From Brachionus manjavacas (lineage: Eukaryota > Rotifera > Eurotatoria > Ploima > Brachionidae), in the NCBI GenBank assembly GCA_019054805.1, contig JAHQIY010000015.1, forward strand, positions 1,434,001-1,498,000: 64,000 nucleotides of DNA. Reading direction: 5' to 3'. The notes beneath the pieces are model-generated. The model saw nothing but the letters and a program-made list of their open reading frames with translations. It made no database searches and was not told the origin of the DNA. Made by a program: the position numbers and the translations under genes. Of this stretch, positions 12,317-15,300 are shown one piece after another (position 1 is the stretch's first letter; every line of letters starts with the position of its first letter).

Positions 12317-15300
12317 TCACTTGACTGGGATAACCGAATTTTGTAAATTTGGAAGAGATCTCAAAAGAATTAAGCATTCATCTAACTTCTGATCAACGTT
12401 GCCCATTTGCTCTTCGAGTCTACAGAGTCTGGCATTGATGGTAAATTTTGCTCGATCTCGGTCATTCATTTTTGGTACGCCCAAGATTTGGTCCATTCGT
12501 CTCTGAAGTTCTTTTAAGCGGATCATTAAATCCATGTTACCCTGACTGTACTGTTCTATGACATCTCTAACATCATATGGTTTTCTCGCTTGCTTTTAAA
12601 AAAATTTTTTTAAAGGCACGATAAAATAAGCTAATTACCTGAAACTTTCTCCTTGCCACAAAATACTTGATCTTTCGTATAACCCGGATTGTTTGTTTAT
12701 GCTGTTCGGTAAGTCTTTCAAAAAAATTCTAAAAAAATCTAAATTTTTTTGGTTCTTACTCGCAGTTCTCATGAATTAAGCTTCTTCCCATATCAGCTGA
12801 ATTGTGACGTGTTCCAGAATAAACATCACTTTCATTATCCATGTTTCTTTTGGATGAAATACTGCTATAATCGTCACTATTCGCCTCCGTATCCGCACGT
12901 CCAAGAGATTTTAACTTATTGCGTCTTGGCTGTGAAAATCGTCGAGGATGATGACCTTTTCAATATTTAGAAACTAATAATTAAATTATTCTAATCAATA
13001 TACCTGAATTTGTTTTTAGATTGTAAATTTTCCATGTTGCCACTGAGTTGCTTCCTGGCATGGCTGCTTTTACCCTCCATGAAGTCTGATTTTTTGTAAA
13101 TTAATAAATTTTTTCCCCTTTTTTAAATCAAATACCTGAATAAGAGCGGCCGCAGCTGGTATTTGTCTATTAAAGTGTTTTTGGCGCTGTTTTTGCTGAA
13201 CCTTCAAAGCAAAACCGGATCCTAGAATTCCCTAAAATTTGGTAACTTATTTATTTGTCTCATTTGAAACTTGTGTAAAGAAATTACGGCAGGTAGTGCA
13301 AAGAACGCAATGCCGAAAACGCAAAAACAACTTGCCACCATTTTGCCCCACCATGTAGTCGGCACTTTGTCGCCATAGCCTATAGTTGCGACAGTGACCT
13401 AAAATTTAAAAATTTAAATTTTTAAATACTTTAACAATCACTTAAAAGCAAAACGTCTAAGACAATCAAATCCAAGCAAAAACAAAACTTACTATTCCCC
13501 TTTTTTTTTGGAAAAAAAAAATATTTAAAAAACTCTTTAAAAAGTGATGCTTAAAATTATCATTTACCACCACAAGGCATCCGCATAGCTCTGGAATTGT
13601 TCATTGGAATCTTTTTCGCAAAGAAAAACAAAATATGAACTAAATATAAGAGACAGGAAGCCTATGTAAAGTGTTGTTATCAATTCCTTTAAAAATCAAC
13701 TTTAATAGTCAAACTTGGCCAGCTTAGATTCAATTTGTCAAATTTTAAAATTATATCATTCATCTAAGCAATTAGCAAGACTAATAGAACTAATGCAAGC
13801 TTTAAAAAAAACAAGTCATAAAATTTAAACAATTCCTTACTACAGAATACCACAGAGCATCAGCATAATTAACAATTGTTGAGTTGGTTGAGTCCTTTTC
13901 GCACAAGTAAATGAGATATGACGAGCATATTAAGACTAAAAATCCAATATACAACGCCGCTATTAGTTCCTTAAGTAAAAATTTAAATCCGGATGAAATG
14001 CCGAATGACAATTGACAAATTAAATCTTTGTTGGTTTAGATTTTATTTACCTGTCTGTGGACATACACTACAGAGCCTAGGAGACGCCAAGTGCCTGCTT
14101 GACGGTCTACATGCAACATTCGAAGAATTTGCAGGAATCGAATCCCGCGAATGGCAGATGTAGCAAACACTTGTCCATTGCTACCAACAGCTATTACTAT
14201 GCTAGATGCCAAAATTACTAGTATGTCAATTAAACAAATGGGTTTTCTGGCAAATTTAAATCGACCACGCCAGCCCATGTACTTGCTTCGGCATCCAGCT
14301 GACCACAAACGCACGCCATATTCGATGCCAAAAAACAAAACCAAAATTATTTCCATGTAGAATAGAATTTTATTTGCCGAATCTGAGTATGTTTCTATTG
14401 TGGACAAAACACTGAATATTAAACATATTAACACTGCTAAAAATCTACAAAATTAAAAAGATTAAAATATTTCCCTTTTTTAAATTTAAAATTAAAAAAA
14501 CAAAATAGCTAATTTTTTGTTTCAGTTTTGAATTTTTTTTTATTAGACGGTGAGGTCAAAATTTTTTTACTGTGAGAGAAAAGCTGAAAATCAGAGATAT
14601 TTGTATTTGATGAATGATATTTAACAATTATTTTTTCTAAGGCTAAATATTTTAAATAAAATCAAGAATTAAATTTAAAATTTGCTCCCAATATTTTAAC
14701 TGTATGATTGCTTTTTTTTAGAAAATAAATTTAAAAAAGATTAGAATTTAAAAAAAATAAAGTTAATTAAAAAAGGCCTTTGAAGCAAAGTTTAACGAAA
14801 ACAAAGCCTTAATATTGTAAATTTTCAAATCGAGAATTTTATTTTGAATTTATGATGTTCTACAACTAAAAGGATGATACTTGATCATTTTTCACTCTTT
14901 TTTCACTCTTTTTTCTAAAAACCCTTTTAATGATTGATATTTATCTGTAATAATCGTAAAAATTTTTAATTCTAATTTAATAGTTTCCTTCCTTTTTATG
15001 ATGGTGTTTGCATGTTTTTTTTTCATCTAGACTCTTAGTAAAATAAATTATTTTTAATGTAACAAAATTTTTCAATGTTTGTGATCAGCATAATTTTTTT
15101 TACAAAAATTTCAAAATTTAAATTTAATTAACTACAGAATAATGTAGTTGTAGAATAATGTATTTAATTAACTATATTAACTACATAGGCTTATAATTTA
15201 ACGCGAATTTAAAGTTATTAAAACTTTCGATTAATAAAAAATATAAAATTAAAATTAAAATACTTTTAATTTTGTGCTTTATTTTTCTCCTGAAAAATTT

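Follow-up and report, generated by a model that had tools for sequence, protein, structure and literature searches.

The minus strand of the window, by which we mean the whole 64-kb stretch of DNA that was analysed, carries between 19874 and 12317 a complete KCNQ1-type channel gene in which one part of the pore domain appears to be encoded twice. Two tandem homologous exons, A and B, each specify S5, the turret and the beginning of the pore helix, and the second of these would be completed by a microexon of seven bases, M, that belongs to B alone. Judged from the sequence, the probability that these are two real alternative exons, with M private to B, is about 85%. Joined through either A or B plus M, the gene model has a complete open frame of 661 or 660 codons, including one shared stop, which corresponds to a channel of 660 amino acids in the A form and 659 amino acids in the B+M form, and its introns are GT-AG. 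The positions of all features are collected in Table 1.

The identity of the gene is given by its matches to known channels. When the B+M form was compared with solved structures, the closest was KCNQ1 (E 2.3e-181, 606.5 bits), while the best KCNQ2 chain scored 440.2 bits; measured by these bit scores against solved chains, the gene is nearer to KCNQ1 than to KCNQ2-5. Both isoforms contain the Pfam Ion_trans domain (99.7 bits in the A isoform, 108.4 bits in the B+M isoform) and the KCNQ_channel domain (PF03520, 79 bits in both), the KCNQ C-terminal domain is encoded within the five downstream exons (12317..13231, minus strand; alignment and Pfam), and the translation contains the TIGYGD filter together with the six-segment core of a K+ channel. 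These matches, with KCNQ1 at the top of the solved chains, bear out the KCNQ identity proposed in an earlier note on this DNA. No confirmed relative was found in the viral_contigs or genome_contigs collections. The gene content points to an animal, and as a guess the size, GC content and short introns of the genome bring monogonont rotifers to mind (GC 24.95-31.14%, PMC11954553).

Several other features of the window and the assembly were recorded alongside the channel gene. A 362-aa rhodopsin-type receptor, encoded as a single open frame (16516-17604, plus strand; 7tm_1, 62.4 bits), sits inside the 4.8-kb first KCNQ intron on the opposite strand. Pfam neighbours include a peptidase C54 of the Atg4 type (54276-55757, plus strand), an NKAP C-terminal domain (9242-10144, plus strand), a nuclear-receptor zinc finger (8193-8657, minus strand) and an FAD/NAD-binding reductase (3328-4491, plus strand). 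A 164-aa frame (40565-41059, minus strand) matches the endonuclease/exonuclease/phosphatase family at 21.2 bits, below the cut-off of 24.5, and is perhaps a retroelement fragment, and a tRNA gene (38590-38669, plus strand) is the only Rfam gathering-level match within the 64-kb window. Elsewhere in the assembly, contig C21 (120555-121901, minus strand) carries a COX1-type oxidase in a 667-aa frame with no inside stops under the standard code, which suggests that the assembly includes a bacterial contig.

Table 1. Coordinates, within the window, of the exons, introns and putative pairing elements of the KCNQ1-type gene
Feature	Position	Strand	Basis
KCNQ exon 1, N-terminus to start of S1	19252..19874	-	gene model and KCNQ1 alignment
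KCNQ exon 2, S1-S4 and S4-S5 linker, ends ...VHRQ, phase 0	14051..14444	-	gene model, alignment
Intron exon 2-A, 81 nt	13970..14050	-	gene model
Element s1 (intron before A), pairs 16 bp with d, would loop out A	14012..14027	-	
Exon A, S5, turret and first part of pore helix (...ADALWYSV), 129 nt, phase 0-0	13841..13969	-	
Element d (A-B intron), common to two competing pairings	13722..13741	-	
Exon B, S5, turret and pore helix start (...ADALW and two bases of next codon), 119 nt	13568..13686	-	
Intron B-M, 68 nt	13500..13567	-	gene model, genome search
Microexon M, GGGAATA, 7 nt; completes second Trp of ALWW, adds G-I	13493..13499	-	
Element s2 (intron after M), pairs 14 bp with d, would loop out B+M	13464..13477	-	
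Filter exon, ...FFALPA, 111 nt	13288..13398	-	gene model
Downstream coding exons 1-2 of five	13231-13136, 13085-13004	-	gene model
Downstream coding exons 3-5 of five	12955-12760, 12714-12639, 12592-12317	-	gene model

Exon A (GAACTA...TCTGTA) is preceded by acttaag and followed by gtaagg, and exon B (GAATTG...TTGTGGTG) is preceded by tttaaag and followed by gtaaat. The outer phases of A and of B with M are compatible, as both begin with GAA after HRQ and both join the GTC of the filter exon. The earlier note had described a tandem pair of S5-turret exons at this place, of which A would end in phase 0 and fit the filter exon, with B as the more canonical copy. The pair is there, with 27 of the 42 aligned residues identical, the frame joined through A remains open to the shared stop, and it is A that departs from the family, at the second Trp and the Gly. 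Divergence between the two copies amounts to a pN of 0.27 with synonymous sites saturated, and the same codon is used in only 10 of the 27 residues that they have in common. Saturated synonymous sites and so little shared codon use point to a pair held by selection on the protein; by this measure of substitutions, A and B are an old divergence under protein constraint, and both exons look functional.

The differences between the two copies fall at positions with counterparts in KCNQ1. Residues were numbered after KCNQ1, in S5 by the spacing of L271, F275 and F279 (PMC8292421) on the aligned KCNQ1 sequence and in the pore by codon 308. On this scale exon A has A264, A265, V272, C275, L279, I280, Y305 and S306, so that Cys stands at KCNQ1 F275, Leu at F279, and Tyr-Ser replaces Trp-Gly in the pore helix. 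In KCNQ1, KCNE1-dependent coupling between voltage sensor and pore involves F279, which lies at the top of S5, and the F275A substitution shifts voltage dependence (PMC8292421). The turret of A additionally contains an N-S-T sequence, a potential glycosylation site, which is missing from B. If both isoforms are made, one gene would supply KCNQ1-type channels that differ at known gating sites.

Critical to the B form is the microexon. The AG, GGGAATA and GTAAGT that the earlier note had read on the minus strand between B and the filter exon were located there: aaaag stands before M and gtaagt after it, and by sequence this is a microexon with AG/GT borders that preserves the conserved frame. 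B ends in phase 2, as had been noted, and when the exons are joined without M the expected stop is found inside the filter exon, five codons past the split codon (...ALWWSLSQL, then the stop). A joined to M runs into a stop in the exon that follows the filter exon. Frame-wise, M fits B alone, which agrees with the suggestion that the 7-nt exon would be recognised only together with B. The further statement that inclusion of M gives exactly the family sequence went too far, as the KCNQ1 chain reads ALWWGVVTVTTIGYGD and differs from the sequence here.

How readily such an exon could appear by chance was assessed with 200,000 simulated introns of 169 nt, generated by a first-order Markov model trained on the intron sequence of the KCNQ gene. 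An AG-7nt-GT arrangement that completes B as W-G-[VIL] occurred in a fraction of 0.00011, whereas any in-frame exon of 1-30 nt was common (0.356 of the simulated introns); because in-frame mini-exons arise so often by chance, the weight rests on the family residues that M encodes and not on its AG and GT. We also listed the ways in which splicing could leave B in frame, allowing either a single intron whose donor (GT or GC) lies within 13620-13541, or an additional internal exon of 3-59 nt placed after the donor of B and ahead of the acceptor of the filter exon. This gave 16 in-frame routes, 9 of the first type and 7 of the second, among which M alone keeps the pore helix without loss or insertion. 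Rescue of B by another splice site was rejected, as none of the other 15 listed routes gives an intact pore helix. Set against these simulated and listed alternatives, M is more than a chance motif.

The origin of M may be read from the boundary of the filter exon. Human KCNQ1 exon 7 spans c.922-1032, codons 308-344, with a length of 111 nt (PMC4396080), and the filter exon of the gene described here has identical limits, from which it follows that the ancestral preceding exon ended in phase 0 after G-V, as A does. A search of the same genome returned two further KCNQ-like genes, L036, which is the closer one, and L037. Read by eye, the corresponding exon of L036 ends unsplit as TGGTGGGGAGTG and is followed by gtaagt, and B joined to M reads TGGTG^GGGAATA followed by gtaagt, the same donor as in L036. 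With both A and L036 unsplit at the filter boundary, M most likely derives from an intron gained inside B, and we regard it as probable, on the strength of these comparisons, that the 68-nt intron was acquired after the exon had been duplicated. A repeated element as the source of this intron was sought in the genome, and its sole match was itself; on that ground an origin by repeat insertion was rejected, in a weak test, as the tool skips simple repeats and common words. Taken jointly, the two alternative exons with a B-private microexon and the origin of M by intron gain are somewhat better than an even bet.

Intron positions near the filter vary among the KCNQ-like genes of this genome, as read by eye. 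The KCNQ2-5-like paralogue L036 (contig C1) has a 19-nt exon, ATAACATTGTGCACAATAG (3260-3278, minus strand; read by eye), that would carry ITLCTIG, the first half of the selectivity filter; of its flanking introns, one follows WWGV and the other interrupts the first glycine codon of GYG. The third KCNQ-like gene, L037 (contig C15, 2221-3638, plus strand), is divergent, with an identity of about 36-38% to the gene in the window; by eye, it has no intron at either of the L036 places, and an intron interrupts its second GYG glycine codon. M is accounted for by ordinary processes, and what sets it apart is its presence in just one of the two alternatives.

The reading frame constrains how A, B and M can be combined. 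Enumeration of the 8 combinations places none of the three, A, B+M and A+B+M in frame, and B, M, A+B and A+M out of frame, the latter four with premature stops that precede the last exon junction by 388-542 nt. The earlier note had seen in this a possible frame-based fail-safe that keeps the two alternatives apart. One half of that idea holds, in that M is welded to B (B without M and A with M are both out of frame); the other half does not, and the frame was rejected as the separator of A and B, because A+B+M and double skipping are both in frame. Something else must therefore account for any mutual exclusion of A and B. At 154 nt, the A-B intron exceeds the 45-56 nt of five introns in the KCNQ gene, so simple steric hindrance was judged unlikely as well. 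Competing base pairing between introns would be a better candidate for exclusivity than either the frame or steric hindrance.

A repeat search revealed an inverted repeat that flanks exon A. Its two arms, s1 in the intron that precedes A and d in the one between A and B, form a contiguous helix using bases 13741-13726 of d, and a second helix, between d and s2 in the intron after M, uses bases 13735-13722 of d. The two pairings have 10 nt of d in common, so only one can form at a time, an overlap that is suggestive of the one-element, two-partner arrangement of control by competing RNA structures. With s1:d formed, 62 unpaired intron bases would remain between exon 2 and B, near the length of the gene's short introns (45-56 nt). 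The s1:d helix was matched by 1 of 2000 shuffles in score and by 12 of 2000 in length, and the duplex energy of the introns that hold s1 and d was reached by 4 of 300 shuffles. By a joint statistic that was chosen after the pairing had been seen, the central arrangement was matched by 1 of 1500 shuffles (8 of 41,552 in a longer run), and any such triple arrangement over five introns by 4 of 1500. When contiguous helices with d were ranked across the 64-kb window, both strands included and the antisense of d excluded, s1 came first and s2 third. A pattern that covers the s1 16-mer and the complement of d has 5 exact matches in the genome (114.2 Mb, 61 contigs), two of them here, and the reversed control has 2.

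The same layout was also placed elsewhere in the real window, where the joint score was attained in 147 of 61,347 placements and the s1:d score in 177 of 61,347; all of these lay at a GC content below 0.27 (32,454 such placements). Within GC 0.20-0.30, the range that includes the locus (0.227), the joint score was attained in 58 and the s1:d score in 65 of 34,811 placements. Between the A-B and M-filter introns the gapped duplex energy does not stand out (59 of 300 shuffles were as good), and for the d:s2 helix alone 19 of 400 shuffles did as well by score and 67 of 400 by length. In a gapped duplex scan against d, which covered about 12,800 windows by step and included overlapping windows and d's own antisense, 8 and 23 forty-base windows beat s1 and s2, respectively. 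The region overall is without unusual structure, as equally good folds were obtained from 44 of 100 and 66 of 200 shuffles, and the local structure of the intron that holds M shows nothing special (z -0.35). A further AT-rich complementarity of 15 bp joins the intron before A (13976-13990) with the intron after M (13410-13424, minus strand), and was attained by 4 of 400 shuffles by score and 2 of 400 by length; this helix between first and last intron would loop out A, B and M together and is not needed by the switch model.

In a folded model of the pre-mRNA, s1:d has a share of about 0.99 against about 0.01 for d:s2, the two being 3 kcal/mol apart. With s1:d dominant at equilibrium, the model predicts B+M as the default, and A would need a protein or co-transcriptional timing. 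That the competing pairing selects between A and B+M is, given these figures, a tentative proposal that we rate a little below even.

The history and operation of the locus can be proposed as follows. The exon for S5, turret and pore helix of a KCNQ1-type gene would have been duplicated in tandem, and the copies spliced as alternatives. A would have remained in one piece, as in the ancestor, with a sequence that diverged, and B would have kept the canonical protein sequence and gained an intron seven bases before its end, leaving M as a separate exon. From then on B and M would be used together to stay in frame, with wrong mixes of B and M leading to early stops. Pairing of d with s1 would loop A out and bring exon 2 to B, giving B+M, and pairing of d with s2 would loop B and M out together and bring A to the filter exon. 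A would be chosen only if s1:d is prevented, for instance by a bound protein, or if A is spliced before d is transcribed. In essence, d between the two alternatives would act as a two-way RNA switch, with B+M as one exclusive unit and the frame as a second lock, a fuller scheme that we hold more tentatively still than the selector role of the pairing itself.

Other accounts of the exons themselves have to be weighed against this. M might not be an exon, in which case B would be spliced otherwise or end in a truncated, poison product. M is indeed tiny and has a run of A ahead of its AG, but A-rich ends are found at other acceptors of the KCNQ gene as well (e.g. TTTTTTTAAAAG), and since these look alike the run is no objection; with the other 15 listed routes leaving no intact pore helix and a motif of this kind so rare in the simulated introns, we consider this account very improbable. 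It is less far-fetched, yet still improbable, that only one of A and B is in use and the other is a decaying copy. Either could be cast in that role, A for being off the family at the second Trp and Gly (ALWYSV) and B for being split by an extra intron. Decay sits poorly with two exons that are both open and have intact splice sites, with a divergence concentrated at synonymous sites, and with an M that retains exactly the family residues that B is missing.

For the choice between the two alternative exons, the pairing of d has rivals of its own. Splicing may be loose, with the frame and nonsense-mediated decay removing wrong products and no RNA structure involved. The early stops in B, M, A+B and A+M, all well ahead of the last exon junction, are what such control would use, but A+B+M and full skipping are in frame, so that A and B would neither be kept apart nor would one of them be forced in, and we think frame-only control unlikely. 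A stronger competitor, which we rate level with the two-way switch, is that the choice of A or B+M is made by a tissue-specific splicing factor, the complementarity being a chance product of AT-rich DNA. Comparable complementarity does occur among placements of real window sequence (the 147 of 61,347 above), and the overall folding of the region is ordinary; against this, the joint arrangement is rare in shuffles (the 8 of 41,552 of the longer run), and both partners of d sit where a selector needs them.

The gene may also be of practical use. About 660 bases lie between the end of exon 2 and the filter exon, which makes for a compact minigene for testing a microexon that is tied to one alternative. 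A human survey took as candidates exons that are of equal length or 3-base steps apart, with at least 10 residues (PMC5740500); a pair of 129 nt and 119+7 nt would, we infer, escape a search of this type, which marks a blind spot. The matches listed from the open-access literature, a source that leaves subscription papers mostly outside, included neither a KCNQ S5 exon pair nor any pair of exons with a microexon private to one member.

As far as the cited passages go, tandem alternative exons in channel pores and competing RNA structures as selector are both already known. Tandem duplicated exons are over-represented in voltage-gated channels (PMC9741552), and in invertebrates the NALCN pore exons 15a/15b and 31a/31b are tandem duplicates that swap part of the pore (PMC3557258). 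NALCN swaps the selectivity-filter residue, whereas here S5, the turret and the start of the pore helix would be swapped and the filter is common to both forms. Tropomyosin offers an N-terminal substitution, with two exons exchanged for a single homologous one (PMC9741552); this is a 5'-end event, and the passage concerned mentions no 7-nt exon. Vertebrate KCNQ1 (Kv7.1) is the top solved match and shares the limits of the filter exon (PMC4396080), and it differs in that the pre-filter exon exists here in two versions, one of them split so as to leave a 7-nt exon. With regard to the selector, competing structures in Dscam, 14-3-3zeta, Mhc and srp permit one partner at a time, and the unchosen exon is looped out (PMC6071210), while in human ATE1 the elements R1 and R4 compete for R3 (PMC11802352). 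The logic predicted here is the same, with one element, one partner at a time and the unchosen exon looped out. In the systems described, the docking site lies upstream or downstream of the cluster, or there are two separate pairs, as in srp (PMC6071210), whereas the shared site predicted for this KCNQ gene would lie between the two alternatives and handle an exon and its microexon as one unit.
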